The position numbers and the translations under genes were made by a program. The notes beneath the pieces are model-generated. The model had not been told where the DNA came from and did not search any database. It saw nothing but the letters and a program-made list of their open reading frames with translations. From the NCBI RefSeq assembly GCF_003070885.1, contig NZ_CP028913.1, forward strand, positions 682,001-746,000: a stretch of 64,000 nt of DNA, given 5' to 3'. Origin of the DNA: Agromyces badenianii (GTDB lineage: Bacteria > Actinomycetota > Actinomycetes > Actinomycetales > Microbacteriaceae). Of the stretch, positions 3,831 to 58,087 are shown in pieces (the stretch's first letter is position 1; every line of letters begins with the position of its first letter).

Positions 3831-3906
3831 GGGCCCATGGCGCAGTTGGTAGCGCGTCTCGTTCGCAATGAGAAGGTCGGGGGTTCGAATCCCCCTGGGT
3901 CCACCA
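3831..3906 (+). tRNA. tRNA-Ala (anticodon CGC)
   Basis: It folds as a normal cloverleaf. The 7-bp acceptor stem is GGGCCCA/TGGGTCC, and the D-arm is GCGC...GCGC. The anticodon loop TTCGCAA reads CGC and so decodes GCG (Ala). The T-arm is GGGGG-TTCGAAT-CCCCC, and CCA is encoded at the 3' end. It lies 53 bp after the membrane protein gene. Confidence 0.96.
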
Positions 3907-3992: not shown

Positions 3993-4031
3993 AGCGTCGA
4001 GTCGGGCGATCTCATCGCCCAACTCGACGCT
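3993..4031. terminator. Inverted repeat between convergent tRNA-Ala and DUF981-like gene
   Basis: Eighteen-base arms (3993-4010 and 4014-4031) are complementary except for one position, with a 3-nt loop CTC. On the minus strand a T-rich stretch (GTCGTTTTC) follows. This fits a rho-independent terminator for the DUF981-like gene that may work in both directions. Confidence 0.6.
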
Positions 4032-4084: not shown

Positions 4085-4816
4085 TCACCCCATGGTGTTG
4101 ATGATGAGCCCGATGTGCGTGAAGAAGTTGAGGGCGCCGAAGAGCAGGAAGGCGAGGCCCGTGAGCGCCCAGACGAGTGCCACGACCCGCTGGAGCAGCG
4201 TGGTCGGGCGGCGGTCTTCGACCGAGCGGAGGGTGAAGGGGAACAGCACGGCACCGAGACCGACGCCCGCGAACAACGCCGACATGAACAACGTCTCGAT
4301 CCACGGGTAGTTCGAGAGCGAACCCGAGATGGGCTCCTCCGGCGGGGCGGCGAAGAGCTGGAAGATGACGCCCGCGAACGCGATCGCGATCAGCGACAGA
4401 CCCATTCCGATGATGAAGATCGAGAGGGGCCGGAACGCCGCCGCGACGGTACCCGCCGCGTTCCCGGAGTCGGCGATCTCGTCTCGCCGGCGCCAGAGGT
4501 AGAACGCCGCCGCGAGAAGGAGGACACCGAAGCCGAGGCTCGTCTCACCGAAGATGATGTTGTCGAAGGGGAAGTACGTCGCGAACGGCCACGTGAGCGT
4601 CATGTGGAGGCCGGTTGCGAACAGGATCACGCCCGGAACGGCGAACGAGAGCGACCATGCATCAGCCCGAATGGGTGCAGCGGTCCGGGTGAGGGACCAG
4701 CCGAACCAGACGATCGTCAGCAGGCCGGCACCCGCAGCGACCGACATGATGGTGTTGTAGGTGATCATGTGCGTCCAGTCGATCTGGAGCCCTGCCGGGA
4801 CAGTGTTTGCCAGCAT
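4085..4816 (-). CDS. DUF981-like integral membrane protein
   Basis: This is a 243 aa protein with about six to seven hydrophobic helices. The block WPFATYFPFDNIIFGE followed by a Leu-rich helix resembles DUF981 membrane proteins, whose function is unknown. The ATG at 4816 has the purine-rich AAAGGCAAGGA just upstream; an in-frame TTG at 4831 is the alternative. It lies 86 bp downstream of the ACMSD-type hydrolase on the same strand, so it may be the last gene of the catabolic operon, for example with a transport or tolerance role. That link is inference from position only. Confidence 0.72.
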   Translation of the reverse strand: MLANTVPAGLQIDWTHMITYNTIMSVAAGAGLLTIVWFGWSLTRTAAPIRADAWSLSFAVPGVILFATGLHMTLTWPFATYFPFDNIIFGETSLGFGVLLLAAAFYLWRRRDEIADSGNAAGTVAAAFRPLSIFIIGMGLSLIAIAFAGVIFQLFAAPPEEPISGSLSNYPWIETLFMSALFAGVGLGAVLFPFTLRSVEDRRPTTLLQRVVALVWALTGLAFLLFGALNFFTHIGLIINTMG

Positions 4817-4902
4817 TTCCTTGCCTTTCAATTTGCTTGCCTTTCGGCGTTGGATCGCGCGCGGACACGCCCACCATCAGGTGGACGTGTTCGTGGCCCG
4901 GC

Positions 4903-5868
4903 TTACGCCGAGCCGCGCGACAGTCGGTGGCCGAGGTAGTCGTCGGCATTCGTCCCCGCGATGCGCGAGGCGTGCTCGGGGATCGCATCCCGAGCATGGG
5001 CGAGTGGATCGTCGTACCCCATCGGAAACGGCCAATCCGAACCCAGGAGCAGGTGGTCCGTTCCGAACACTCCGGCAGCCAGCCTGAGTGCGCCTTCGTC
5101 GTGCGTGAGGCAGTCGCTCCACAGCCCGCGCGCCTGCGCGCGGAGGTCGATGTCCTCGGGCACCCCCGGCCTGCGGGAGCGCACACCCTGCTGAAGCCTG
5201 CCGAGCAGCGCGGGCAGGGTGCCGCCGCCGTGGACGAGTGCGATCCGAAGTCCGGGGTACGACGAGAGCACCTCACCCAGAAGGAGCTGCGAGGCGGCGA
5301 TGGCGGTCTCGTGGGGATTGCCGATGAGATTGTGAAGGTACGCGTCGTCCAACCGCGTGTCGGGGCTTCCTCCCGGGTGCAGCAGCAACGGAATGTCGAG
5401 CTCCACCAGTCGACTCCAGACGGGTCGCAGCCGAGGATCCGCGAGCGAGACCGACCTTCCGCCGGCGGCCGCGGTGAACCCGACAGGGTGTTCCGACGCC
5501 GCGAGGCGGTCGAGCTCTTCTCGAGCGACCTCGGGGTGCTCGAAGGGAAGGTATCCGAGTGCGTCCAGTCGCGGGTGTTCCACGAGTTGCGCGAAGAGGG
5601 CATCGTTCACCGATCGAGCCCACGAACGGGCCGAGGGTTCGTCGAGCCCCTGCCGGTAGAGGGGAGGCGGGATGGAGACGAGCGCACGATCCAGGCCGGC
5701 GGTGTCGAGCCACGCCGCGAGGGCGTCGGGCCGGTAGATGACGGCGGGCCCCGCGGCATGATCCGCCACGAGCAGACGGCCGTTCGCGTCGACCGAGAGC
5801 CCCGCCGCAGCGGCGTCCGCGGCGCCGACCGTGGGAACGAGGTGCGTGTGGACGTCGGTGCCCGTCAC
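4903..5868 (-). CDS. Amidohydrolase-2 family protein, ACMSD-like metal-dependent decarboxylase
   Basis: The 321 aa TIM-barrel metalloenzyme belongs to the family of 2-amino-3-carboxymuconate-6-semialdehyde decarboxylase (ACMSD) and related aromatic acid decarboxylases. Metal ligands can be seen in order: DVHTHL at the N-terminus, the His in LLLHPGG mid-protein, VHGGGTLPALLGR, and the Asp in LLGSDWPFPMG near the C-terminus. The HGGG and SDWPFPMG blocks are especially ACMSD-like. The start is a GTG at 5868 that overlaps the stop of the upstream hydrolase (GTGA), so translation is coupled. It probably acts late in the ring-cleavage route encoded by this cluster. The substrate is unknown. Confidence 0.85.
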   Translation of the reverse strand: MTGTDVHTHLVPTVGAADAAAAGLSVDANGRLLVADHAAGPAVIYRPDALAAWLDTAGLDRALVSIPPPLYRQGLDEPSARSWARSVNDALFAQLVEHPRLDALGYLPFEHPEVAREELDRLAASEHPVGFTAAAGGRSVSLADPRLRPVWSRLVELDIPLLLHPGGSPDTRLDDAYLHNLIGNPHETAIAASQLLLGEVLSSYPGLRIALVHGGGTLPALLGRLQQGVRSRRPGVPEDIDLRAQARGLWSDCLTHDEGALRLAAGVFGTDHLLLGSDWPFPMGYDDPLAHARDAIPEHASRIAGTNADDYLGHRLSRGSA

Positions 5869-6767
5869 TGCACACCGCCCGTCACGTACTCGGTGAGCGA
5901 CGCACGGGTGATCACGTTTCGCAGGGCGCCCAGTCCGCTCACCGACGACACGAGCACGTCGCCGTCCTTGAGGAAGATCTGGGGTTCGCGAGCGTTCCCG
6001 ATTCCGGACGGCGTCCCGGTGAGGATGACGTCCCCGGCGCGGAGCGTCATGCCGCGGCTGAGCTCGCTGATGATCCGAGGAATGGAGAATGCCATCTGGC
6101 TCGTGCTCGCGGCCTGCAACCGCTCGCCGTTCAGCGAGAACTCGAGCTCCAGCCCTGCGTCGAGGTCGACTTCGTCGACCGTCGTCAGCCACGGCCCGAG
6201 GGGGAGCGAGCCGTCGATGCTCTTGCCCTTCAGCCACTGCCCGCCGTGCGCCCGCTGCAGGTCGCGCTGCGAGACGTCGTTGGCGACCAGGAGTCCCGCG
6301 ATGTGATCGAGCGCGCGATCCTCGGGGATCGAGCGGCCGTCCGTGCCGATGACGAGGGCGAGTTCGACCTCGTAGTCCCACTTCTCGGAGAGCTCGGGAT
6401 CCCACGGCACCGGATCCACCGGCCCGAGGACCGTGCCGGGTCCCTTCGTGAAGAAGGTCGGATGGAGCGGACGGTCGGCAGGGTCCTGTCCCTCGCGTTT
6501 GCCCTTCGATTCCTCGAAGTGGTCCCAGTAGTTCCATCCGGTGCAGAGGATGTCCCGGTTGAACCTGGTGATCGGGCTGAGGATCTCGAGGTCGTCCGAG
6601 TCGACCGGAACGCCCGCGGCGATCGCCTCGTCGAGCGCGGTGCGCACAGCAGGCAGACGCACGAGGTCGTCGGGTGTCGGCGCGCCGAGCGGCAGCAGGA
6701 CGTACCCGTCCTCGGTGACGGCGAAGGTGCGCACGACGCCGTCGTGCCGCGCTCGACCGATTCTCAT
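5865..6767 (-). CDS. Fumarylacetoacetate hydrolase family protein
   Basis: The 300 aa FAH-fold enzyme belongs to a family that includes fumarylpyruvate hydrolase, 2-keto-4-pentenoate hydratase and oxaloacetate or oxalocrotonate decarboxylases. The N-terminal lid region holds ILCTGWNYWDHFEES. The metal-binding Glu residues lie in YEVELALVIG, the Asp in VANDVSQRDLQ, and the catalytic Lys in WLKGKSIDG. The GTPSGIG turn near residue 255 is also typical. The ATG at 6767 overlaps the TGA of the Rid gene (ATGA). The likely reaction is C-C hydrolysis, hydration or decarboxylation of a ring-cleavage product; which one cannot be told from sequence. Confidence 0.88.
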   Translation of the reverse strand: MRIGRARHDGVVRTFAVTEDGYVLLPLGAPTPDDLVRLPAVRTALDEAIAAGVPVDSDDLEILSPITRFNRDILCTGWNYWDHFEESKGKREGQDPADRPLHPTFFTKGPGTVLGPVDPVPWDPELSEKWDYEVELALVIGTDGRSIPEDRALDHIAGLLVANDVSQRDLQRAHGGQWLKGKSIDGSLPLGPWLTTVDEVDLDAGLELEFSLNGERLQAASTSQMAFSIPRIISELSRGMTLRAGDVILTGTPSGIGNAREPQIFLKDGDVLVSSVSGLGALRNVITRASLTEYVTGGVQ

Positions 6768-7171
6768 GCGCGGTTCTCTGAGATGACGGCGATCGCGTTG
6801 ATCTCGATCAGATAGTCCTTGTTGACGAACTTCGAGACCTCGACCATCGTCGACGCCGGTGCCACACCCGTGAAGTACTGGCGACGCACGGCGTGGATCG
6901 CCTCGAAGTCCTCCATGTTGCGAACGTAGACGTCGACCCGTGCGATGTCGTCGAGCGTTCCGCCCGCGGCCTCGACGGCAGCCGAGAGGTTCTGGCACAC
7001 CTGGTGCGTCTGGGCGGTGATGTCGCCGACCCCGGTGACGCCGCCGTGCACGTTGCGCGCCGTCATGCCCGAGATGAAGACGAGGGTTCCTTCGGCTCGT
7101 GCGCTCGTCGCCTGTGCGAAATGACCGTTGGGCTGCGCCAGTGCGGCTGAGCGGACTTCTGACTTCGACAT
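6764..7171 (-). CDS. RidA-like (YjgF/YER057c/UK114) family protein lacking the RidA arginine
   Basis: This is a 135 aa Rid-superfamily protein (trimeric chorismate-mutase-like fold). The ATG at 7171 has GGAG about 8 nt upstream. Canonical RidA imine deaminases carry a catalytic Arg in a PARS motif and a Glu in the final VEIEAIA strand. Here the same places read PASTMVEVS and LIEINAIAV, so both residues are missing. It therefore belongs to a divergent Rid subgroup. Such proteins occur in aromatic and amino-acid catabolic operons, and 2-aminomuconate deaminase is a distant relative. It overlaps the FAH gene by 4 nt and follows the short cupin gene. Confidence 0.85.
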   Translation of the reverse strand: MSKSEVRSAALAQPNGHFAQATSARAEGTLVFISGMTARNVHGGVTGVGDITAQTHQVCQNLSAAVEAAGGTLDDIARVDVYVRNMEDFEAIHAVRRQYFTGVAPASTMVEVSKFVNKDYLIEINAIAVISENRA

Positions 7172-7194
7172 GAGTGATCTCCTCTCGCTCGCGA

Positions 7195-7737
7195 TCAGCG
7201 AGCGTCTTGTGGGTCGGTGTACCAGCTGGGCTGCGTCGGGTAGTGCGGCCCGTCGTAGACCTCGAGAAGCACGGTGTCCTCTTCCGCGAAGGTCGGTCCG
7301 TGCAGGCTGCCGCGGGGGTTCCAGTAGAAGGACCCGGGCGTCAGCGTGATGTCGGTCGGCAGGTACGTGTACCGCCCCGCCAGGCAGAACATGAACTGGT
7401 TCGATGCGTGCGAGTGCCGCGACGGGATGCCCGACCCCTTGAGGAACCGGACGAGCGTGATCGACGCGCCCGTGTCTTCGTTGCGCCAGAGCGCCTTCTG
7501 GCTGAGGCCTTCGAGCGTCTTGTCGACCCAGTCGAGGTCCCCGGTCTGAACGAGGATCTCGCGGAAGCGGTGGGCTGCCTCGCCATCGTCGGTCTGGGCT
7601 GTCCGCTCCCGTGAGCGGTCGGGCGCCTCGCCGCCGTAGCGGGCGGGCTCCGAGAGGTTCTCCTGCCATTCCGCCGCGTCGATCGACGGCGGTCGCGGCG
7701 GTGTCGGCACGAGCTGGTCGCCGGCGTCGTCGGTCAT
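7195..7737 (-). CDS. Single-domain cupin protein with Glu-to-Gln metal ligand change
   Basis: This is a 180 aa cupin. Motif 1 is GIPSRHSHASNQFMFCLAG and motif 2 is GSFYWNPRGSLHG. They give two His from HSH and one His from motif 2 as metal ligands, while the usual Glu of motif 1 is Gln. The family relatives I would expect are ChrR-like or acetylacetone-dioxygenase-like cupins. It starts 4 nt inside the upstream cupin gene, and the two may form a heteromeric or sequential pair. A dioxygenase or isomerase role on a hydroxylated aromatic intermediate is plausible but unproven. Confidence 0.82.
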   Translation of the reverse strand: MTDDAGDQLVPTPPRPPSIDAAEWQENLSEPARYGGEAPDRSRERTAQTDDGEAAHRFREILVQTGDLDWVDKTLEGLSQKALWRNEDTGASITLVRFLKGSGIPSRHSHASNQFMFCLAGRYTYLPTDITLTPGSFYWNPRGSLHGPTFAEEDTVLLEVYDGPHYPTQPSWYTDPQDAR

Positions 7738-8450
7738 GACTGCTGCTCCTCCTGGGCCGGGATGTCACGGGTGGACGAGTCCGCCGCGAGATAGTCGAGC
7801 GCGACGACGAACCACGCGCGCGGGCGCGCGGCCTCGTTGACGATCGAGAACGTGCCGCTCTCCACCTCGCGGATCGACGTGGTGAGTGCGTCGTCCTCCA
7901 GGTCGCCGTCGAATTCCACGACCAGGTGCGGCGCGTCGTCGCCCGAGATCTGCGCGGTGTCGCCTCCTGCGATCTCGATCGTCCACACGCGAACGAAGTC
8001 GGTGACGAGCACCGGGCGGCGACCGTCGGTCGTCTCCGGCGCGTTCTCGGGGAGCACTCCCTCGACGCTGCGAGCACCGTCGCCGACGTCGACCAGGCCG
8101 GTCGCCGACGCCTCGCCGAGCGATTTCAGCTCGATGAGCCGGTTTCGATACCGTCCCGACCCGGTGTTGGTCAGGCAGTGCACCGGCGAGACCGGCCGGA
8201 ACACCGCTCCACCGTCGTACTCCGAGATGTTCCGCGACGGACTGCCGTCGAGCCAGTCCATGCGGCCGGTGGATCCGATGATCGACAGGACCACATAGGG
8301 GTTGCGGTGCAGATGCCACGGGTGATGCCCCCCGGGCCCGAGACGCACGTCCCAGACGCGCAGGCGATCGGAATCGCGCAGCATGTGCGTGCCGATGCCG
8401 ACGAGCGTCACTTCGGTGCCGTCGGGCGCCACGACTCTCTCTCCGTGCAT
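7734..8450 (-). CDS. Bicupin-like protein, putative ring-cleavage or accessory enzyme
   Basis: The 238 aa protein shows a clear N-terminal cupin: GGHHPWHLHRNPYVVLSIIG (motif 1 with HLH but no Glu) and GGAVFRPVSPVHCLTNTG (motif 2). A second, degenerate cupin half begins near residue 150 (VRVWTIEIAGGDTAQ). It starts three bases after the stop of the flavoprotein gene; the flavoprotein's last codons supply the GGAGGAA ribosome binding site. Bicupins include gentisate-type dioxygenases, but this protein is shorter and lacks the usual ligand pattern, so I leave the reaction open. Confidence 0.75.
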   Translation of the reverse strand: MHGERVVAPDGTEVTLVGIGTHMLRDSDRLRVWDVRLGPGGHHPWHLHRNPYVVLSIIGSTGRMDWLDGSPSRNISEYDGGAVFRPVSPVHCLTNTGSGRYRNRLIELKSLGEASATGLVDVGDGARSVEGVLPENAPETTDGRRPVLVTDFVRVWTIEIAGGDTAQISGDDAPHLVVEFDGDLEDDALTTSIREVESGTFSIVNEAARPRAWFVVALDYLAADSSTRDIPAQEEQQS

Positions 8451-8453
8451 GGT

Positions 8454-10181
8454 CTATTCCTCCTCGGTTCCGTTTCCGCTGTCGTCGTCGCCGCGGAGCG
8501 ATCCCGGGCGCACGATGCTCCGATAGACGCGCTCGACCGAGCTGTCGCGCGGAAGGATCGCCGCGACGTGGCCGTCGGGTCGAACGAGCACGACGGTGTC
8601 GTTCGAGACGCCGAGGCGGTCGCGGTACGCGTCTCCCGGGTCGAACAGCGAACGGCCGCGGAGGCCGGAGTCGTGAGGGGCGTCCCAACGGCTGACGATC
8701 CAGTGCTTGAGCCCCGGTGTCGTCGGGGCGGGCAGCGTCGGGCGTCGCCGGGCGTCGGTGAAGGTCAGGGCGACGAAGGAGTCCGCCGCGAGGTCGTGCA
8801 CGTAGACGTGTCCGCCTTCCGGGCCGAAGACCGTGCCGTCGGGGATGCGGTCGCCCACCCGGATCGGCGAGGGCTCCTCGCTGTCGGGTGACATCGACCA
8901 TTCGCCGGTGCCGTTCACGTCGAGCCGAACCCCGAGCAGGGTCCGAGTCATCGCGTGGCCCCAATCGGCGCGAGTCCTCACGCCGTCGTCGGACCCTTCC
9001 ATCGCTGCGCGGGCGAGCTCGGCCATCTGGGCGGATCCGCTCGAGGCGACGATCGACTGTTCGCGTTCGTAGGCGTCCAGCAGGCCCGGATCCGCCCATC
9101 CGCGCAGCACCCAGGCGAGGCGCCAGGCCATGTTCGACGCGTCGAGCACTCCGGTGTTCAGACCCAGTGCCCACATGGGCGTGATGAGGTGGGCGGCATC
9201 TCCCATGAGGAACACGCGGTCTTCACGCCAGCGCTGCGCCATGCGCAGGTGCACCGAGTAGATGTTCGTCCCGACCACGTCCACCTTGTCGACATCCCCG
9301 ATGAAGTGCAGGGCCTTCTCGCGCAGCTCCTCGAGCGTCGGTTCGGTCTCGTCCTGCGGCAGCGGGAAGAGGAAGCGCCAGCAGTGCGGTTGACGAACCA
9401 GGATCATCCATTCCTGCGGATCCGAGAAGTAGGCCAGGTAGGGGTAGTCCCGGGGGTTGTCGACATCGAGGTCGACCTTCAGGTCGACGAGCATGTAGCG
9501 CACCTCGAGCGTCTTGCCCTCGACGGGGATGCCGAGGAGCGAGCGGATCGTCGAGCGTCCGCCGTCGCACGCGAGCACGTACCGCGCCTCCATCTCGTAC
9601 GTGCCGCCGGGGCTCTCGATCTGCAGCGTGACGCTGTCCGCGTGCTGGTCGAATCCGACGACTCGGTGCCGCAGGCGAACCGCGTCGGGCACTCGCGAGC
9701 GGAGCTCCCCGTACAGCTGCTCTTCGAGCGCGTTCTGGGGGATGTTGATGACGAAGGGGAACCGCGTGTCCGCAGCGAGGGTGTCGGTTCGCACCGAGAA
9801 TCGCGCGTCGCCGGTGGATCGCTCGATGTCGCCGATCTCGTCGATCCGCATGGACTCGCGCAGCACCGGAGTGAGGGCATCGTATCGATGCAGCACCTCG
9901 AGCGTACGGGTCAGCACGGTGCCGGCCTTGGTCTGGCGCGAGAGCTCGGCATCGTCCTCGAGCACCACGACGGGGATGCCGTGCGAGATCAGTCCGAGGG
10001 CCGTGATGAGCCCGACCGGCCCGGCACCCACGATGACGACGGGCTGGGCGGTGGGGGCGTCATCGAGAGGGGACGAGTCAGCGGAAGCGTGTGTGGGCAT
10101 GTCAACTCCTTGAGTACGAAGGGTCACGGGACTGGAGGAGCCCGTCAGAGTGGTTGCATCGGATGCAGGAGCGGTGCTCAT
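8454..10181 (-). CDS. FAD-dependent aromatic monooxygenase, PheA/TfdB/MhpA type
   Basis: The 575 aa flavoprotein hydroxylase has the Rossmann FAD motif VVIVGAGPVGLITALGL, the DG motif (VLACDGGRSTIR) and the GD motif (VFLMGDAAHLITPMWALG). A thioredoxin-like C-terminal domain ends with LVRPDGHVAAIL, as in MhpA-type 3-(3-hydroxyphenyl)propionate hydroxylases. These enzymes use NAD(P)H and O2 to hydroxylate phenolic rings. The start at 10181 has a strong GGAGG 7 nt upstream and overlaps the Ldh-family gene by 4 nt. It is probably the first ring-attacking enzyme of the cluster. The substrate is unknown. Confidence 0.9.
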   Translation of the reverse strand: MSTAPASDATTLTGSSSPVTLRTQGVDMPTHASADSSPLDDAPTAQPVVIVGAGPVGLITALGLISHGIPVVVLEDDAELSRQTKAGTVLTRTLEVLHRYDALTPVLRESMRIDEIGDIERSTGDARFSVRTDTLAADTRFPFVINIPQNALEEQLYGELRSRVPDAVRLRHRVVGFDQHADSVTLQIESPGGTYEMEARYVLACDGGRSTIRSLLGIPVEGKTLEVRYMLVDLKVDLDVDNPRDYPYLAYFSDPQEWMILVRQPHCWRFLFPLPQDETEPTLEELREKALHFIGDVDKVDVVGTNIYSVHLRMAQRWREDRVFLMGDAAHLITPMWALGLNTGVLDASNMAWRLAWVLRGWADPGLLDAYEREQSIVASSGSAQMAELARAAMEGSDDGVRTRADWGHAMTRTLLGVRLDVNGTGEWSMSPDSEEPSPIRVGDRIPDGTVFGPEGGHVYVHDLAADSFVALTFTDARRRPTLPAPTTPGLKHWIVSRWDAPHDSGLRGRSLFDPGDAYRDRLGVSNDTVVLVRPDGHVAAILPRDSSVERVYRSIVRPGSLRGDDDSGNGTEEE

Positions 10182-11245
10182 GCTCGTCCTCCTGACGGAG
10201 GGGCTGGGACGGTCGCCCCGACGGCGGTGGCGGTGGCGATGAGGTCATCGAGCACCCGGGCGCTCACGGCCACCCCGGCACCGTTGGCCCGACGGGCCGC
10301 AGCCCGTGCACCGTGGCCCGGCAGACGGGGCGGCGCGTCGGTGTGCACGCCGGCCGCCAGGATCGGATCGACGAGCCGGCTCAGGCCGTCGGTGAAGCTC
10401 GCGGCCGGGAGGAACCGGTTCACGTCGATGGCGAGGAAGAACTGCGCGGAGTCGTTCGGCGCGGCGGTGTCGGCGTACAACCCCCGCACCTCGTGGCTGA
10501 CAGCGCCCCCCGAGAGCACCCCCGTGAGGATCTCCACGACCAGGGCGAGGCCGAAGCCCTTCGGGCCGCCTGCGGGCAGCAGCATCCCATCGATCGCCGC
10601 ATGTGCGTCGGTGGTCGGATTGCCGTCGCGATCGGTGGCCCAATGTTCCGGGATGGCGGAACCAGAGGAGGCAGCCATCCGGATCTTGCCGAGTGCGACC
10701 TCGGAGAGCGCCATGTCGAGCGTGAAGCTCCGCTCGTCGTCACCCGGAACGGCGACGGCGAACGGGTTGTTTCCGACGACGGGTTCTGCGCCGCCGGGAG
10801 CCGGCATCATCGGGCGGGTGTTCGATGCGGCGATGCCGATCATCCCGCGTGCCGCAGCGCGATCCGCGTACTGCGACGCTCGGCCGAAATGGAACGCGTG
10901 GCGCACGGTGACCACGCCGATGCCGAAGCGCTCGGCCTTCTCGATGGCGAGGTCCATCGCGCGCCGGGCGCTGAGCTGCCCGAGCGAGTGACCGGCATCC
11001 AGCACCGCCGTGGCGCCGTCGTCGGCGACGACCGCGGTCACGTCGGTCGCCGCCACCGACCCCCGCCGCAGGCGGTCGACGTACATCGGAACGAGCATCA
11101 CCCCGTGCGATGGCACGCCTGCTTCGTCGGCGGCGACGAGCGAGTCCGCGACGAACCGGGCGTCGTCGGGGGCGACTCCGGCCGCCTCGAAGACGGCCGC
11201 GGTCGTCTCCCGAAGCCAGATCGGATCTTGCGTAGAGGAAATCAT
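10178..11245 (-). CDS. Malate/L-lactate/ureidoglycolate dehydrogenase (Ldh2) family oxidoreductase
   Basis: The 355 aa NAD(P)-dependent 2-hydroxyacid/2-oxoacid oxidoreductase is of the Ldh2 (MDH/LDH type 2) family. It shows AADEAGVPSHGVMLVPMYV near residue 50, VTVRHAFHFGRASQYADRAA near 120 and NTRPMMPAPGG near 145. It is the first gene of the catabolic operon; an operator-like 17-bp site lies 10-26 nt upstream of the ATG at 11245. An upstream TTG (11254) is in frame but would start at the edge of that site. It may reduce a keto acid released by the pathway or oxidise the incoming substrate. Confidence 0.87.
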   Translation of the reverse strand: MISSTQDPIWLRETTAAVFEAAGVAPDDARFVADSLVAADEAGVPSHGVMLVPMYVDRLRRGSVAATDVTAVVADDGATAVLDAGHSLGQLSARRAMDLAIEKAERFGIGVVTVRHAFHFGRASQYADRAAARGMIGIAASNTRPMMPAPGGAEPVVGNNPFAVAVPGDDERSFTLDMALSEVALGKIRMAASSGSAIPEHWATDRDGNPTTDAHAAIDGMLLPAGGPKGFGLALVVEILTGVLSGGAVSHEVRGLYADTAAPNDSAQFFLAIDVNRFLPAASFTDGLSRLVDPILAAGVHTDAPPRLPGHGARAAARRANGAGVAVSARVLDDLIATATAVGATVPAPPSGGRA

Positions 11246-11254
11246 GGTCACCAA

Positions 11255-11271
11255 ATCTGATATGTGATCAC
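11255..11271 (-). promoter_or_regulatory. Candidate GntR operator A, upstream of the catabolic operon
   Basis: The plus strand reads ATCTGATATGTGATCAC, an imperfect dyad (ATC...GAT around GATAT). It matches site B at 14646-14662 in 15 of 17 positions. On the minus strand a possible -10 (TATCAG, 11262-11257) lies inside it. A possible -35 (TTCGAC, 11284-11279) stands 16 bp upstream, the same spacing and register as at site B. Binding here would block the promoter. The likely ligand-responsive protein is the GntR encoded at 11308-12006. Confidence 0.68.
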
Positions 11272-11307
11272 GGAGGTGGTCGAAGCGGAGCCGGACTCGC
11301 GCTCGTG

Positions 11308-12006
11308 TCAGGAGCTCATCGCGGTGTTGATGCGCTGCATCGCCGCGTTGAGGTGCACCTGTACGGCCTGCTGTGCTCGCTCGACATCGTGCGAGGAACA
11401 GGCTTGAAGGATCTCGTCATGTTCTTCATGGGTCCGGCGGCGTGCGCCGGGATCGGTCGGAGACGCGAAGCGATACCGCTCGCTGTTCTGCCAGACCGGC
11501 TCGAGTGATCTCAGCAGCCACCGAGCTCCGGACGCGCGATAGATGGCGAAGTGGAAGGCCGTGTGCGCGCGTCTCGCCGCATCGACGTTGCCGGCTTCGA
11601 TGAACCGTTCATGCTCTTCGAGCGCCTGCGCGGCCTCCTTCTCATGCGCGGCCGAGAACGTCTTGGCGGCTTCGGCCACCAGAGCCCTCTCGAGCACGAG
11701 ACGGGTGCGGTAGGTGTCTTCGAGGTCGCTGACGGAGAGCTCGACGACGCGTGCCCCGCGATGCGGGACGACTTCGACCAGACCGAGGGCCGCGACCCGT
11801 CGAAGCGCCTCGCGAACCGGCATCGAACTCGTCTCGTAGGTCGAGGCGAGGTCTTGGATGCGAAGCCACGTGCCTGCTGGGTACTCTCCTCGGAGGATGG
11901 CCAGGTGAATGGCCTCGGCGACGGTATCGGCGAGCGTGCGGTGGCCGATCAGGTTCGATCCCGGAGGAGCGAAGCCGGGCGGTGTCGCACCAGGGAAGGT
12001 CGTCAT
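11308..12006 (-). CDS. GntR-family transcriptional regulator (FCD/VanR-type)
   Basis: The 232 aa regulator has an N-terminal winged helix (about residues 15-80; LADTVAEAIHLAILRGEYP and SSMPVREALRRVAALGLVEV). An all-helical FCD-type ligand domain follows, with the metal- or ligand-binding pattern around RRAHTAFHFAIYRASGARWL and HLNAAMQRINTA at the end. The ATG at 12006 overlaps the permease stop (ATGA), so it is the fourth gene of the transporter operon. It sits between the importer and the enzymes, with matching operator-like sites before each. It is therefore the obvious local repressor, probably released by the substrate or an intermediate. Confidence 0.92.
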   Translation of the reverse strand: MTTFPGATPPGFAPPGSNLIGHRTLADTVAEAIHLAILRGEYPAGTWLRIQDLASTYETSSMPVREALRRVAALGLVEVVPHRGARVVELSVSDLEDTYRTRLVLERALVAEAAKTFSAAHEKEAAQALEEHERFIEAGNVDAARRAHTAFHFAIYRASGARWLLRSLEPVWQNSERYRFASPTDPGARRRTHEEHDEILQACSSHDVERAQQAVQVHLNAAMQRINTAMSS

Positions 12007-12812
12007 CGGTTCTCCTCCGCCCACGGCAACAAGCGCTTCTCGATGAGCACCAAGATATAGAACAACGCGATGCTGATGATAGCGAGCAGCAGGATGGCCG
12101 AGAAGGCGAGCGCCATGTTCGCGCTCGCACCGGACTGCACGATGACGAATCCGAGACCCGACGACGCCCCGACGAACTCGCCGATCACCGCACCGATGAC
12201 GGCGAGCGTGATCGCGTTCTTCAGGCCGACGAAGATCTGCGGCATCGCCCACCACAGGCGCACCTTGGTGAACTCCTGGATCGGTCGCGCCGAGAGCGAT
12301 GCGGTCAACTCCACCAGGTCCGACGGGGTGGACCGAAGTCCCGAAACCGTCGAGAGCACGATCGGGAAGAAGCACAGGAGGACGACCATGACGATCTTCG
12401 GCGTGATGCCGAACCCCATCCAGACGAGCAGGATCGGGGCGATCGCCACCTTCGGCACGGAGTTGACCGCGAGCAGCAGGGGGTACAGCATCTGCTCGAG
12501 CACCTTGGAGCGCGCGATCGCCATGGCAAGCGGAACGCCGATCACGATCGCGATCAGGAAGCCGAGGACCGTCTCGAGGAGCGTCACCAGCGTCTGCTGC
12601 ATCAAGAACGCGAAGTTCTCGAACAGCGTCTCGATGACGAGCTGCGGGCCGGGGACGATGAACGCCGGTACCGCGAAGATCTCGGTGGCGGCCCACCAGA
12701 GGCCGATCGCGATCACCACGGCGGCCAGCGGCAGGAGCACCGCCCGCACCGCGGCGCCGCGGTTGGGGACGACACGGCTGGGGACGACGGGGGTACGAGC
12801 TGTCACAGTCAT
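12003..12812 (-). CDS. ABC transporter permease, SsuC/TauC-like
   Basis: This is a 269 aa inner-membrane permease of the nitrate/sulfonate/taurine class with about six TM helices. The EAA loop is near residues 175-200 (ALIxSTPKVAIAPILLVWMGFGITPK-like region earlier, WWAMPQIFVGLKNAITLAVIG later). It overlaps the ATPase gene by 4 nt upstream and the GntR gene by 4 nt downstream. Together with the ATPase and lipoprotein it forms a complete importer for a small organic anion, presumably the substrate of the adjacent enzymes. Confidence 0.9.
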   Translation of the reverse strand: MTVTARTPVVPSRVVPNRGAAVRAVLLPLAAVVIAIGLWWAATEIFAVPAFIVPGPQLVIETLFENFAFLMQQTLVTLLETVLGFLIAIVIGVPLAMAIARSKVLEQMLYPLLLAVNSVPKVAIAPILLVWMGFGITPKIVMVVLLCFFPIVLSTVSGLRSTPSDLVELTASLSARPIQEFTKVRLWWAMPQIFVGLKNAITLAVIGAVIGEFVGASSGLGFVIVQSGASANMALAFSAILLLAIISIALFYILVLIEKRLLPWAEENR

Positions 12813-13579
12813 GCTGCGGCCGTTTCATTCGTGGGGTGGAGCAGGTCGTGCAAGCGGGCGCTGATCCGAGCGACATCCTCGATGTGCGCGCCCTGCCCGA
12901 GTGTGCGGGGGCGCGGGATGTCGACCTTCACGATCTCCCGGATGCGCCCGGGACGCGGCGTCATGACGACGACGCGATCCGCGAGCAGCACGGCCTCGTC
13001 GATGGAGTGGGTGACGAACACGATGGTGGTGCTCTCGTCCGCGACGATGCGCTGCAACTCATTGGAGAGTTCGGCGCGCGTCAAGGCGTCGAGCGCCGAG
13101 AACGGCTCGTCCATCAGCAGCACCTGGGGGCGCTGCAGCAAGGACCGGCACAGCGAGACCCGCTGCTGCATTCCGCCCGAGAGCTCGTGCGGGAGCTTCT
13201 TCTCGAAGCCCGCCAGGCCGGCGAGCGTGAGCAGTTCCTCTGCGCGCACGCGGCTTTGACGCCGGTCGAGCTTCAAGATCTCGGCCGGCAGCAGCACGTT
13301 GTCGATGACGGAGCGCCACGGGAGAAGGGCGGGGCGCTGGAACATGAAGCTGACGTCGCGTCGCGGTCCGGAGACCGGGTCGCCGGCGACGGCGACCCTG
13401 CCTCCGGTTGGGGGGACCAGCCCCGAGATCGCCCTCAGCAGTGTCGACTTTCCGCAACCGGAACGGCCGACGAGGGTGACGAACTCGTTCTCCTCGACCG
13501 TGAGGTCGATCCCCTCGAGCGCGTGCACGGTGCCCGTGCGGGTCTCGAAGATCTGAGTGAGGTCGTGGATGTCAATCAT
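12809..13579 (-). CDS. ABC transporter ATPase, SsuB/TauB-like
   Basis: The 256 aa nucleotide-binding subunit has Walker A GRSGCGKSTLL (about residue 37), the Q-loop (FMFQRPALLPW), signature LSGGMQQRVSL and Walker B VLLMDEPFSALD, and the H-loop in VFVTHSIDEAV. These are typical of nitrate/sulfonate/taurine importers. The start overlaps the stop of the lipoprotein gene (ATGA), and its own stop overlaps the permease start. Translational coupling of all four genes indicates fixed stoichiometry. Confidence 0.93.
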   Translation of the reverse strand: MIDIHDLTQIFETRTGTVHALEGIDLTVEENEFVTLVGRSGCGKSTLLRAISGLVPPTGGRVAVAGDPVSGPRRDVSFMFQRPALLPWRSVIDNVLLPAEILKLDRRQSRVRAEELLTLAGLAGFEKKLPHELSGGMQQRVSLCRSLLQRPQVLLMDEPFSALDALTRAELSNELQRIVADESTTIVFVTHSIDEAVLLADRVVVMTPRPGRIREIVKVDIPRPRTLGQGAHIEDVARISARLHDLLHPTNETAAA

Positions 13580-14589
13580 GACCCGGCTCCTGGAAGCAGA
13601 TCGAACGAGACCAGCTCCTCGGCCGTCACGTCGCCGGTGATCGCAGCGCTCAGGGTCTCGATGACCACGTCGACGCGGGCCGGATCCATGGATCCGAGCT
13701 CGCCCTCACCCGGTACGAACGGCGCCATGAGCTCGATCTCGGCTGCTGCCGCCTTCGCATCCTGGGTGGGGTGGTACTTCTTGAGGATCTCGCCGCTCTC
13801 TTCGGGGTGCTCGATGGAGTACTCGAGGCCCTTCAGCAGCGCCGTCCGGAAGCGCTCGACGAGTTCGGGGTTGGTGGTGGCGATCTCGTCGGACGTCATG
13901 AGCACGGTGCCGTAGAGGTCGGGCAGCTCGTCGCCGTACGGGAGGACCACGACGTCGCGTCCCTGTGCGACCGAGGCGATGAGCGGCTCACCGACGACGA
14001 ACTGTCCGATCGCGTCCGCCTGGTGCGTCGCCAGCACCTGGGGAAGGGTCGGCGGCGCCGCCGGGACGTGCGAGACGGTGGAGGCGTCGATTCCCGCCTT
14101 CTCGGCGTACGCCGGGAAGATGACCTCGTTCGTCGAACCGGGCTGGTCGGCGATCGTCTTGCCCTCGAGGTCTTTCGGAGATTCGATGCCATAGCCCTCG
14201 AGCGTCACGATCGCGGCGAGCGTGCGCTGCTGGATCGCCGCGACGGCAGTGACGGGCAGATCTTCGTTGGCCACCGTCACGACGGCGGCCGAGAAGTCGA
14301 CGGGACCGAAATCGGCGCTCCCGCTGGCGATGAGTTTCATGACGTCGACGGAGCCCGACCCGGGCTCGATCGTGATGTCGATGCCGACCTCGTCGAAGTA
14401 CCCGAGCTCCTCGGCGACGTACACGTAGGCGTCACGGCCGAACGTGTTGAAGCCGGTGAGGTAGCGGACGGACTCTCGCTCACCTTCGAATGACGACGAT
14501 TCGGCGGGCGCCGGCGCCTCTGAGGAGCACGCGGCGAGACCCAGGACGAGGGGGATGGACAGGGCGGCGAAGCACTTGCGGTACGACAT
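13576..14589 (-). CDS. ABC transporter substrate-binding lipoprotein, SsuA/THI5-like (NMT1 fold)
   Basis: The 337 aa secreted lipoprotein starts with MSYRKCFAALSIPLVLGLAAC; the lipobox LAAC is followed by SSEAP. The mature part is an NMT1/SsuA-type type-2 periplasmic-binding fold (GYFDEVGIDITIEPGSGSV, GSADFGPVDFSAAVV). It binds the imported compound outside the membrane. The ATG at 14589 has AGGAGG at ideal spacing; a longer frame to 14634 has no such site. It is the first gene of the transporter operon, and a GntR-type site lies 57 bp upstream. The family is used for sulfonates, nitrate, pyrimidine precursors and aromatic acids, so the ligand stays open. Confidence 0.9.
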   Translation of the reverse strand: MSYRKCFAALSIPLVLGLAACSSEAPAPAESSSFEGERESVRYLTGFNTFGRDAYVYVAEELGYFDEVGIDITIEPGSGSVDVMKLIASGSADFGPVDFSAAVVTVANEDLPVTAVAAIQQRTLAAIVTLEGYGIESPKDLEGKTIADQPGSTNEVIFPAYAEKAGIDASTVSHVPAAPPTLPQVLATHQADAIGQFVVGEPLIASVAQGRDVVVLPYGDELPDLYGTVLMTSDEIATTNPELVERFRTALLKGLEYSIEHPEESGEILKKYHPTQDAKAAAAEIELMAPFVPGEGELGSMDPARVDVVIETLSAAITGDVTAEELVSFDLLPGAGS

Positions 14590-14645
14590 TAGGCCTCCTA
14601 GGCGGTGGGCTGCTCGCCTATGAGCAGCTGCCACGAGTGAGTCTA

Positions 14646-14662
14646 ATCAGATATTTGATCAC
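14646..14662 (-). promoter_or_regulatory. Candidate GntR operator B, upstream of the ABC transporter operon
   Basis: The plus strand reads ATCAGATATTTGATCAC, a near twin of site A at 11255-11271. On the minus strand a -10-like TATCTG (14653-14648) lies inside it, and a -35-like TTGCAC (14675-14670) stands 16 bp away. The site is also about 80 bp upstream of the divergent MFS gene, so that gene might share the control. Confidence 0.68.
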
Positions 14663-14741: not shown

Positions 14742-16235
14742 ATGTCGCACGCGCCTGAGACCCGGTCGATCACCCTGCCCGAAGGCCACCGATGGCGCGC
14801 CTACTGGGTGTGTGTCGCCGTGGCCGCACTCACCATCCTCGACCTCTCGAAGGTCAATGTGGGGCTGCCCGCCATCGAGGACGCCTTCGGGGCCGGCTCG
14901 ACCGAGCTGCAGCTCATCGTCGCCGGATACGTGCTGACCTTCGGCCTGACGCTCGTGCCGGCCGGGCGCATCGGCGACCAGCGCTCGCGCAAGACGCTCT
15001 TCATCGTCGGCCTCAGCCTCTTCGCGCTCACGAGCCTCGCGGCCGCACTCGCACCGAACGTCGGCGTCCTGCTCGTCGCCCGCCTGTTGCAGGGCGTCGC
15101 AGCCGGCATCCAGATGCCGCAGGTGCTCGGCATCATCCAGGAGCTCTTCACCGGCAAGGAGCGCGGCAAGGCCTTCGGGCTCTTCGGCGCGACGATCGGC
15201 CTGGCGACGGCCTTCGGGCCGACGCTCGGCGGGCTGATGATCGCGATCGGCGGCCCCGAAGACGGCTGGCGCGGGATCTTCTGGATGAACGTGCCGCTCG
15301 CCCTCGCCGCGATCGCACTCGCGATCTGGCTGCTGCCCGTGACGAGGCGTCCGTCGAAGAAGCCGCTCTCGCTCGACCCCGTCGGCGTCGGGCTCTTCGC
15401 GGTCACGGTGATCTCGCTCATGTGGCCCTTCCTCTTCACGACGGGCTCGCCGAGCGACAATCCCGCGCGCTGGTGGGTGCTCGTCGTCTTCGTGTTCGCG
15501 ATCACCGCGTTCATCGCGTGGGAGCGGCGGTACGCGGCATCCGGAAAGCACCCGCTCGTGCCGATCGGCCTCTTCGGCGTGAGCTCGTTCCGCAACGGCA
15601 CGGCCCTCGCGAGCGTGTACTTCGCCGCGATGCCCTCGATGTTTTTGCTCACGACCCTGTACCTGCAGCACGGCCTCGGCCTCGAGGCCGTCTTCGCCGG
15701 CATGGTGGGCATCGGCTTCGCGCTCATGAGCGCGGTCGGCTCGTGGGTCGGTGGCACGCTCGTGAACCGCATCGGCCGGCCGCTCGTCGTCTGGGGCCTC
15801 GCCTTGCTGCTCGTCGGCATCGGGCTGCTCGTGCTGTTCGCCCTCGTGACGCCGCCCGAGGTGACGCCGTGGGCGATGGCGGGCGCAATGGTGATCGGCG
15901 GTGCCGGCGGCGGTCTCGTCGTCTCGCCGAACCAGACGCTGACGCTCATGGACATCCCGGTGAAGCAGGGCGGGCTGGCCGGTTCCGTCGGGCAGCTCGG
16001 CCAGCGCATCGGCACCGCGATCGGCACGGCGGTCACGCTCTCCCTCTTCTACTCGACGATCTTCCGGGAATCCGACGGCAACCCCGATCTCGCGGTGTAC
16101 CACCACGCGTACGGGATCGGCATGCTCGCCGTCGCAATCCTCGTCGCGATCGCCTTCGCGATCGGCGTGGCCGACCTCGGGCTGCGGCGCCGCCAGCGGA
16201 GCGCGCTCGGCGGCGCCGAGCCGGCGGTCGGCTGA
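14742..16235 (+). CDS. MFS transporter, DHA2 (EmrB/QacA) family
   Basis: The 497 aa drug:H+ antiporter-like permease has about 14 hydrophobic helices. Typical motifs are LDLSKVNVGLPAIEDAFG at TM1 (the D/N-V-A/G-LP-I signature), the loop 2-3 motif RIGDQRSRKTLF, and motif C in TM5 (GATIGLATAFGPTLGGLM). The start at 14742 follows a short leader containing a perfect palindrome. Divergent from the catabolic transporter operon, it may export a toxic substrate or intermediate of that pathway, or be unrelated. Confidence 0.88.
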   Translation: MSHAPETRSITLPEGHRWRAYWVCVAVAALTILDLSKVNVGLPAIEDAFGAGSTELQLIVAGYVLTFGLTLVPAGRIGDQRSRKTLFIVGLSLFALTSLAAALAPNVGVLLVARLLQGVAAGIQMPQVLGIIQELFTGKERGKAFGLFGATIGLATAFGPTLGGLMIAIGGPEDGWRGIFWMNVPLALAAIALAIWLLPVTRRPSKKPLSLDPVGVGLFAVTVISLMWPFLFTTGSPSDNPARWWVLVVFVFAITAFIAWERRYAASGKHPLVPIGLFGVSSFRNGTALASVYFAAMPSMFLLTTLYLQHGLGLEAVFAGMVGIGFALMSAVGSWVGGTLVNRIGRPLVVWGLALLLVGIGLLVLFALVTPPEVTPWAMAGAMVIGGAGGGLVVSPNQTLTLMDIPVKQGGLAGSVGQLGQRIGTAIGTAVTLSLFYSTIFRESDGNPDLAVYHHAYGIGMLAVAILVAIAFAIGVADLGLRRRQRSALGGAEPAVG

Positions 16236-32681: not shown

Positions 32682-37786
<5,105 letters not shown>

Positions 37787-37996
37787 ACTACACTCACACG
37801 ATTTGAACTCATTCAAGTAAAGGCCGTGTGTGTGGCCCAAGATACGCTCGCGTCCACTCTGTGGTTCCCTTCAGACGGAAACCCAACACAACACAACACA
37901 GACACCTGTGCACCCCCAACCCGTGTGGTTGGTGGTGTCAGGCAACCGAGACCACACACCCACCCCACAACATGTGGCGGGCGAGGTGTGGCAAGA
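37787..37996 (+). other. 23S-5S spacer with 23S processing stem strand
   Basis: This 210-bp spacer carries GCTCGCGTCCACT (37846-37858), the partner of the pre-23S strand at 34531-34543, and an unusual CA-rich stretch (37890-37910). No gene is visible. Confidence 0.8.
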
Positions 37997-38116
37997 GTTT
38001 CGGCGGCCATAGCGCGAGGGAAACGCCCGGACACATTCCGAACCCGGAAGCTAAGACTCGCAGCGCCGATGGTACTGCAGGGGCGACCCTGTGGGAGAGT
38101 AGGACACCGCCGGACA
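37997..38116 (+). rRNA. 5S ribosomal RNA
   Basis: The region of about 118 nt has complementary ends (TTTCGGCGG / CCGCCGGA) and the conserved CCCGGACACATTCCGAACCC and GGTACTGCAGGGGCGACCCT blocks. It closes the rRNA operon. Confidence 0.95.
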
Positions 38117-57615: not shown

Positions 57616-57703
57616 GCAGCCCTGCGCCCGGCGTGCACAGGGCCTGCCCAGACCGCGTTGCTAGCCTGTCGACAGGTCGCCGCGGAGTTCGAATCGCGAG
57701 GCC

Positions 57704-57744
57704 CCGGACGAGGGATCAGTACCCGGAACGCGACAAGACTGGCC
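57704..57744 (+). ncRNA. Guanidine-III (ykkC-III) riboswitch
   Basis: The 41-nt segment holds the conserved blocks of the guanidine-III aptamer in order and at the right spacing: CCGGACGAGG (57704-57713), AGTACCCGG (57718-57726) and CGACAAGAC (57731-57739). P1 forms between CCGG 57704-57707 and CCGG 57723-57726. The pseudoknot helix forms between TCAGT (57716-57720) and ACTGG (57738-57742); its bases differ from the known aptamer sequence but still pair. The Shine-Dalgarno GGGAG (57747-57751) and the exporter start follow at once, so translation control is likely. Confidence 0.88.
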
Positions 57745-57760
57745 ACGGGAGTGAACAGTC

Positions 57761-58087
57761 ATGGCATGGGTCATCCTCATCGTCTCCGGCGTGCTCGAGG
57801 CCGTCTGGGCCACCGCGCTCGGCAAGTCCGAGGGCTTCACGAAGCTCTGGCCGTCGGTGATCTTCTTCGGCGCACTCGCCCTCTCGATGGGCGGCCTGGC
57901 GTGGGCGATGCGCGACATCTCGACCGGCACCGCCTATGCGGTGTGGGTCGGCATCGGCGCGGCGCTCACGGTCGTCTGGGCGATGATCTCGGGTGACACG
58001 GATGTCTCGTGGGTGAAGATCGCACTGCTCATCGGTCTCATCGGCTGCGTCATCGGCCTCAAGTTCGTCGACGGCGGCAGCCACTAG
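57761..58087 (+). CDS. SMR-family guanidinium exporter (Gdx/SugE-like)
   Basis: The 108 aa small multidrug resistance protein has four TM helices. It starts MAWVILIVSGVLEAVWATAL with the essential Glu at position 13; AMRDISTGTAYAVWVGIGAA is the central helix region. The W-A-T sequence after the Glu and the guanidine-III riboswitch upstream both point to Gdx-type guanidinium/H+ exchange rather than a broad drug exporter. It works as an antiparallel dimer in the cytoplasmic membrane. The gene appears to be a single-gene transcription unit. Confidence 0.92.
   Translation: MAWVILIVSGVLEAVWATALGKSEGFTKLWPSVIFFGALALSMGGLAWAMRDISTGTAYAVWVGIGAALTVVWAMISGDTDVSWVKIALLIGLIGCVIGLKFVDGGSH

Follow-up and report, generated by a model that had tools for sequence, protein, structure and literature searches.

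A conserved and exchangeable catabolic gene core in Agromyces badenianii, possibly serving an anthranilate-type acid

Genes and control regions of the operon

The window analyzed here is a 64,000-nucleotide stretch of the Agromyces badenianii genome (contig NZ_CP028913.1, positions 682,001 to 746,000; all coordinates below are counted from its first letter), and our subject is a minus-strand run of eleven genes extending from 14589 to 4903, with a twelfth gene reaching to 4085. In general kind the system is ordinary, having the makeup of a regulated operon for aromatic catabolism. Its enzyme core is undescribed, conserved, and exchangeable, and both cupins and the Rid protein in it are unusual. 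The gene order, the 4-nucleotide overlaps and tiny gaps, and the DUF981 gene at the end are all as the initial annotation of this DNA had described them.

An ABC importer comes first, with an NMT1/SsuA-type substrate-binding protein (13576..14589, minus strand like all twelve genes; PF09084, 3.4e-45; start set by the ribosome-binding site AGGAGG), an ATPase (12809..13579; PF00005, 3.7e-33), and a permease (12003..12812; PF00528, 8.2e-27). A GntR-family regulator of the FCD type follows (11308..12006; PF00392 and PF07729), and then Ldh2, an oxidoreductase of the malate/L-lactate dehydrogenase family (10178..11254; PF02615, 4.9e-109; under the NCBIfam cut-offs); FMO, a group-A flavoprotein monooxygenase (8454..10100); the cupins Cup1 (7734..8450) and Cup2 (7195..7737); a Rid-family protein (6764..7171; PF01042, 3.2e-25); an FAH-family hydrolase (5865..6767; PF01557, 1.2e-65); AmH, an ACMSD-like amidohydrolase-2 protein (4903..5868; PF04909, 1.3e-19); and a DUF981 protein (4085..4831; PF06168, 1e-34). 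Six of the junctions are 4-nucleotide overlaps, and the remaining gaps measure 3, 23, 53, 71, and 77 nucleotides, the last with the FMO start corrected as described below. The G+C content of the cluster, 0.68 against 0.69 for the window, gives no distinction. In an NCBIfam scan of ten cluster proteins, none reached the family cut-off among the families shown, so that no protein can be named to function by family.

Related loci were collected by scanning a species-genome collection with a Cup1 alignment, which gave 47 loci; two plasmid loci, reached via FMO and Cup2, and one short locus (L053) bring the set to 50. Because the search started from Cup1, the set is biased and clusters without Cup1 are under-counted. 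Conservation of the neighborhood had been set beforehand as a test whose failure would refute the initial annotation, and the outcome was strongly positive: Ldh2, FMO, Cup1, Cup2, Rid, and FAH occur together as a core in 22/50 loci, whose hosts belong to several actinobacterial families or carry the genes on rhizobial plasmids (two, from Agrobacterium and Mesorhizobium). AmH is linked to the core in 19 of these 22: the stretches fetched include it in 15 loci, and in 4 it follows a short way outside them (L031, and also L004, L030, and L032, for which a sequence check confirmed that the contig is the same). In the other three it lies elsewhere in the genome: about 130 kb from the module in L049; in L027 on another contig, 12 kb long, beside SDR2 and genes of the StyA-like, flavin-reductase, and molybdenum-hydroxylase types; and within a second copy of the module in L011 (Kribbella). 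That second copy (L065, 1-8749), which was met by chance, holds an importer permease, Ldh2, Rid, FAH, GntR, SDR, FMO, Cup2, and AmH. No Cup1 match was found in the 12 kb read there, and Cup1 would hence be dispensable in some versions of the module.

A common 16-nucleotide sequence, GATCAnATATCnGATT, lies at both 14645-14660 and 11254-11269. Site 1 (GATCAAATATCTGATT; 14645..14660, minus strand) sits between the -35- and -10-like hexamers of a weak promoter-like pair at 14669-14640, ahead of the importer genes; site 2 (GATCACATATCAGATT; 11254..11269, minus strand) falls at the start of Ldh2, in the 53-nucleotide gap. We read this repeat as a candidate site for the GntR protein at two promoters, and the second copy at the start of Ldh2 suggests that the cluster probably comprises two transcription units. 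With a pattern derived from the two window sites themselves, the only exact matches in the 3.05-Mb genome are sites 1 and 2, and two further matches with two mismatches lie elsewhere.

At the far end of the run, the DUF981 gene is perhaps co-transcribed with the operon. It lies outside the conserved module, and we rejected it as a pathway member, since tblastn at E <= 1e-8 found none in the 47 related loci. A terminator-like hairpin with an 18-pair stem follows 3' of it (3993..4031, minus strand); hairpin hits in this region number 3, against a mean of 3.0 in shuffles, which is no excess. A tRNA-Ala (CGC) gene at 3831-3906 lies just past the operon end, and an MFS transporter gene (14790-16235; PF07690, 6.6e-52) is divergent from the importer genes.

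Unusual active sites and a deleted SDR gene

The altered metal ligands that the initial annotation had noticed in the two cupins are real: both proteins keep three His and lack the Glu. Cup1, a two-domain cupin with no Pfam family match, has H46, H48, and H91 invariant in 50/50 loci, and Tyr52, Val/Leu53, and Val54 at the place of the cupin-motif Glu. Cup2 matches Cupin_7 (PF12973, 4.3e-14), Cupin_2, and DUF4437 and pairs its three His with an Asn-Gln: H108, H110, Q114, and H146 are invariant in 22/22 loci, and Asn113 aligns to the Glu of the nearest solved relative, 2,4'-dihydroxyacetophenone dioxygenase. The three His of that enzyme are kept in Cup2, its His-x-His-x-x-Glu ... His motif is absent, and the profile E value between the two is only 0.0017.

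The ring-opening enzyme of the 3-hydroxyanthranilate and gentisate routes is itself a cupin, so that a cupin in this place is not surprising in itself. What stands of the earlier suggestion that the ring-opening step could be new is that, judged by family profiles and aligned residues, neither cupin fits the 3-hydroxyanthranilate or gentisate cupin families, and the ligand sets differ. No cupin of the cluster matches PF06052, the 3-HAO family; a search of the genome for this family was empty too, but its controls also gave none. Against NCBIfam at 1e-3, no model matched Cup1 or Cup2, and the gentisate 1,2-dioxygenase family was thus not found. In the loci examined, the second Kribbella copy included, Cup2 travels with Rid, FAH, and Ldh2, and Cup1 travels with FMO. 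If either cupin opens the ring, it is more likely to be Cup2 than Cup1, which may act on the FMO product. The likeness of Cup1 to BacB, AerE, and seed storage proteins was set aside, as the VIA-align rows below AzcA reflect the common bicupin fold only. AzcA itself (PDB: 9u8n and 9u8o), triazine-forming according to its entry title, is a single-domain cupin, whereas Cup1 carries a second cupin domain; no paper naming AzcA was found in the open-access literature.

The Rid protein departs from its relatives at one position, where the window and 22/22 loci have Ser (S107) and five aligned solved relatives have Arg. The Arg of the PAR motif, the catalytic residue of RidA-type imine deaminases, is thus missing. 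Rid matches the 2-aminomuconate deaminase chain 6izh at 1.2e-9, with 20 other Rid chains scoring better. AmH has ACMSD as its best solved relatives (4e-28), and five residues of metal-site type (H7, H9, H164, H213, and D278) together with R224 and R233 are invariant in 15/15 loci. FMO spans nearly the whole FAD_binding_3 domain (PF01494 positions 3-342 of 349, 8.3e-65), placing it in group A; its best solved chain is PnpA, phenol hydroxylases are among the others, and rifampin monooxygenase and polyketide oxygenases are also relatives. The best NCBIfam model for FAH, under cut-off, is 2,4-didehydro-3-deoxy-L-rhamnonate hydrolase, and its closest chain is named 5-oxopent-3-ene-1,2,5-tricarboxylate decarboxylase, with acylpyruvase and maleylpyruvate hydrolase chains matching as well.

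These FAH and FMO relatives recall the gentisate and homogentisate routes, which have the same layout of flavoprotein monooxygenase, cupin, and FAH enzyme. The operon could accordingly be imagined to degrade a nitrogen-free phenolic acid in a gentisate- or flavonoid-like fashion, with FMO forming a hydroquinone or catechol, a three-His cupin cleaving it, FAH hydrolyzing an acylpyruvate, and Rid serving as a tautomerase or scavenger. We regard this as unlikely: such a route has no role for Rid or for the ACMSD-like enzyme, which is present in 22/22 genomes or records, and the cupins fit no NCBIfam model. In the available text of PMC11069340, the fde/ifc flavonoid clusters of Herbaspirillum and Variovorax likewise combine a group-A flavoprotein monooxygenase with cupins for the catabolism of plant compounds, but they rely for ring dioxygenation on the extradiol, glyoxalase-type FdeC. 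This enzyme is absent from the window cluster, and with no glyoxalase-type gene among the twelve genes, the flavonoid clusters were set aside as a model.

In most relatives, an SDR gene sits between Ldh2 and FMO; it is present in 21/22 related core clusters and missing only in the Mesorhizobium stretch. In the window, an ATG overlapping the Ldh2 stop opens a short reading frame that runs into FMO, and the listed FMO frame consequently opens 27 codons early, at 10181. The FMO start is at 10100, where an ATG is preceded by the ribosome-binding site AAGGAG and gives a protein of 548 residues. Of the intervening segment (10101..10181, minus strand), about 65 nucleotides after the first codons align in M. 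radiodurans (L003) to the 3' end of the SDR gene together with the ribosome site ahead of FMO, with a local alignment score of 63 against a maximum of 32 in 300 shuffles. For five other relatives, the scores (highest shuffle score in parentheses) are 49 (28), 49 (35), 37 (31), 43 (33), and 31 (32), the fifth being not above chance. Presuming that the assembly is correct, these alignments indicate that most of the SDR gene is deleted in the window and that its scar accounts for the first 27 residues read in the FMO frame as listed. No orthologue was found elsewhere in the same genome, which offers only two SDRs at 32-35% identity, the better at 35%. Hence, the description of the operon as a complete route does not hold for this genome: either the route is rerouted through another dehydrogenase or it is no longer complete.

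Spread of the module and its varied front ends

The module is rare, with FMO found at E <= 1e-120 in 2/396 Actinomycetota genomes, one of them the window's own, and Cup1 in 2/60 relatives, namely the same genome and one weak partial match. The window 16S gene, part of a 16S-23S-5S rRNA operon at 32682-38115 on the plus strand, is 93-94% identical to those of three module-bearing Microbacterium genomes. In the FMO tree (33 rows, L053 left out), however, these three are not grouped, and the window is sister to only one of them. The genes thus move between lineages. Elsewhere in the window, at 57682-58087, a guanidine-III riboswitch (52.5 bits) lies directly before a gene of the small multidrug-resistance family (PF00893, 8.2e-19), a layout resembling that of a guanidinium exporter.

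Parts of the core also occur alone. FMO and Cup1 are found without Cup2 in 10/50 loci (Lentzea, one Saccharothrix, and Kineosporia), and Cup1 is the sole core gene in 17/50, two of these with an importer; L053 is too short to judge. Eight Lentzea loci (L028, L033, L035, and L039-L043) carry the importer, FMO, and Cup1 beside a CE1758-family luciferase-like monooxygenase, and L028, the one Lentzea locus scanned, also has an FMN reductase and a MarR regulator. Ten Paractinoplanes/Actinoplanes loci with Cup1 alone (L016-L025) all match the PIG-L-type deacetylase and/or the WYL regulator of L018 nearby. The frequency of solitary Cup1, the luciferase-like monooxygenase that stands beside the importer, FMO, and Cup1 in Lentzea, and the rifampin and polyketide oxygenases among the FMO relatives could all point to modification or detoxification of an antibiotic-like or plant compound rather than growth on it. 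For the window operon, we consider this very improbable, as an importer and a complete lower part that runs as far as an FAH hydrolase, both under one regulator, have the layout of a growth pathway.

The front end that accompanies the core differs between loci, and one set of neighbors bears on anthranilate. PrnB-like, kynureninase-like pyridoxal-phosphate (PLP) enzyme, and amino-acid permease genes accompany the module in four genera (Kribbella, Crossiella, Fodinicola, and Kutzneria); PrnB belongs to the tryptophan-dioxygenase superfamily. In Crossiella, the kynureninase-like gene overlaps the FAH stop by 4 nucleotides. PrnB occurs in 4/20 actinobacterial core loci against 1/198 Actinomycetota genomes (Fisher p 2.5e-4, in a test that treats related loci as independent draws). 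The four loci do not form one group on the FMO tree, where at least 3 label changes are needed; shuffled labels need 3.9 on average, and 62/500 shuffles go as low as 3. The rows are thus scattered rather than clustered, which implies that the same front end joined the module more than once or that FMO was exchanged. An AraC regulator is present in six loci, three with the PrnB and kynureninase-like genes and three with StyA-like genes. Five of these were scanned (all but L032), and the family that scores highest for them is AndR, the regulator of anthranilate dioxygenase, with 148-204 bits under a family cut-off of 350; other AraC models, including FeaR, reach <=75 bits. In L059 (9724-11966), a PrnB-like gene stands beside a kynureninase-like gene (29% identity) with no module gene in the 19 kb read, which suggests that the two genes form a unit of their own with an aromatic amino acid as substrate.

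Other front ends look different. The NMT1 importer is found in 7/22 core loci in addition to the window, a CrtI-like flavoprotein in 9/22, and a StyA-like monooxygenase in four, as well as in the L027 genome. The Agrobacterium copy adjoins a Rieske dioxygenase (BenA-like, under cut-off) and an isochorismatase-like hydrolase. Molybdenum-hydroxylase subunits occur in six core loci (two Georgenia, one Conexibacter, and three Pseudonocardiaceae), as well as in the L027 genome and in Mesorhizobium, whose plasmid carries two sets; a separate Saccharothrix contig has them together with StyA-like and AmH genes. The last group could indicate that the substrate is an N-heteroaromatic acid (a pyridine or quinoline carboxylate) whose breakdown bypasses anthranilate. 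In such a route, FMO or molybdenum hydroxylases would hydroxylate the ring, AmH would decarboxylate a hydroxypyridine carboxylate, a cupin would open the ring, and Rid would remove the nitrogen. NMT1-type binding proteins are known to accept planar heteroaromatics such as thiamine pyrimidines, which fits this scheme as well. We nevertheless judge it rather unlikely, because the loci with PrnB and kynureninase-like genes and with AndR-like regulators indicate a benzenoid amino acid, and 5/7 core loci with the NMT1 importer have no molybdenum-hydroxylase match in the fetched stretch.

A possible route through an anthranilate-type acid

The reading that we favor, at a probability of roughly 0.4, is that the cluster, as two transcription units under common control, serves the uptake and degradation of an anthranilate-type ortho-aminoaromatic acid. 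The sequences themselves show the gene content, its conservation, the invariant residues, the SDR loss, and the repeated site; the substrate, the steps, their order, and each reaction are taken from protein family and gene linkage. In this scheme, the NMT1-type importer would take up the acid, and the FCD-GntR protein would repress both promoters through the shared site until released by the substrate or an intermediate. FMO would hydroxylate the ring, a three-His cupin, Cup2 more likely, would open it, and AmH would decarboxylate the ring-opened amino-dicarboxylate in the manner of ACMSD. Rid might then handle the enamine, Ldh2 and an SDR would adjust the oxidation state, and FAH would split a dioxo acid, giving pyruvate and one further acid. 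The anthranilate-type reading is suggested by AmH and Rid, which recall the ACMSD and 2-aminomuconate deaminase steps, and by the PrnB and kynureninase-like genes, their scatter on the FMO tree, and the AndR-like regulators described above. According to the available text of PMC4539516, tryptophan, indole, and quinaldine are all degraded via anthranilate, and such convergence fits the varied front ends.

Later steps of 3-hydroxyanthranilate catabolism use FAH-superfamily enzymes, and 3-HAO is a cupin. As described in the accessible parts of PMC4539516 for Geobacillus NG80-2 and of PMC7842363 for an Aspergillus terreus cluster, this lower kynurenine pathway includes an FAD hydroxylase and an ACMSD-type decarboxylase, to which FMO and AmH would correspond in the window cluster. 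The window cluster differs in having no cupin of the 3-HAO family and no aminomuconate semialdehyde dehydrogenase, and the module adds Ldh2 (with the SDR in relatives), a Rid protein without the Arg, and a second cupin. A gentisate route of anthranilate via 5-hydroxyanthranilate was reported for Nocardia opaca (Cain 1968, as told in the available text of PMC4539516). Its hydroxylation, gentisate-type cleavage, and pyruvate product would need a flavoprotein monooxygenase, a cupin, and an FAH-type hydrolase; that text names no genes for it, and the route has no place for the ACMSD-like AmH, Ldh2, or Rid. The catechol route (AntABC/AndA) finds no counterpart, as no Rieske large subunit is among the window cluster genes.

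Further afield, the lum cluster for lumichrome in Nocardioides simplex, an actinobacterial heteroaromatic pathway, has LumY, which is a cupin, and LumV, whose gene is a putative FAH member. In the accessible text of PMC12746152, LumY acts on a hydrolyzed pyrone after ring opening, so a cupin need not be a dioxygenase. The cluster was set aside for its different gene set in that text, with an extradiol enzyme (LumE), P450, Rieske, and thiamin enzymes. The auxin (iad) clusters were likewise set aside, as the ring-opening or front-end enzyme given in the text consulted is absent from the window. The open-access literature, to which the search was confined (subscription papers lay outside its scope), yielded no described or characterized cluster with the same gene set; in the available text of PMC11069340, PMC11303751, PMC12633357, PMC7842363, PMC4539516, and PMC12746152, nothing matches it. 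Thus, the proposal that the operon, under regulation, takes up and degrades an aromatic and probably nitrogen-bearing acid by a pathway without a name is supported, as is the statement that an extradiol dioxygenase and an aldehyde dehydrogenase are lacking among the twelve genes.

Several observations weigh against an anthranilate-type substrate or the scheme built on it. Neither PrnB nor a kynureninase-like gene nor the AraC regulator is seen in the window or in its nearest relatives; the window regulator is of the GntR type, and no AraC gene of this kind appears in the PrnB-bearing Crossiella locus. Shared architecture may contribute in part to the AndR scores, all of them below the family cut-off, and the kynureninase-like protein matches none of the kynureninase models, its hit to Pfam KYNU_C reaching only 5.7e-7. 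No Cyclase-family hydrolase (PF04199; isatin hydrolase/kynurenine formamidase) is linked to the module: the two plasmids have none, the nearest lies >80 kb off in the chromosome-scale L031 and L049, one genome has none at all, and three genomes have hits whose positions were not compared. The twelve cluster genes, to which this search was limited, include no aldehyde dehydrogenase for aminomuconate semialdehyde, and Rid is without the Arg of RidA-type imine deaminases. In the Lentzea and Saccharothrix loci, the importer, FMO, and Cup1 occur with the lower part absent from the stretch read, so that what FMO makes can also be put to a different use. The candidate regulator site is poorly kept, with <=2 mismatches in only 2/11 relatives checked, before the importer genes in L009 and before AmH, the first gene of the cluster, in L048. 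The missing matches in most relatives count against the site, or else it has drifted; as a conserved feature, we dropped it.

A broader proposal can be built on the same observations, and we regard it as doubtful: that the core represents an undescribed oxidative route of the anthranilate type, whose enzymes, at most eight (Ldh2, SDR, FMO, Cup1, Cup2, Rid, FAH, and AmH), form a lower module that is exchangeable, has spread between actinobacteria and rhizobia, and is fed by front ends of the tryptophan, indole, or heteroaromatic kind. A three-His cupin that lacks the Glu and opens the ring, and a Rid protein that lacks the Arg and takes part in nitrogen removal, would then both be new enzyme types.

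Comparison across loci gives a boundary to a recurring catabolic module whose parts annotation names only piecemeal, as 'cupin', 'RidA family', 'FAH family', or 'amidohydrolase', and yields a concrete, testable substrate class. It also reveals that this strain's copy has lost one member, a deletion that is invisible from the single genome alone. If the broader proposal is right, the four aerobic routes for anthranilate that the available text of PMC4539516 lists would be joined by another, which would include two enzyme types with active sites unlike those of their families. The module could then supply the genes still lacking for the actinobacterial route from anthranilate known biochemically since 1968.

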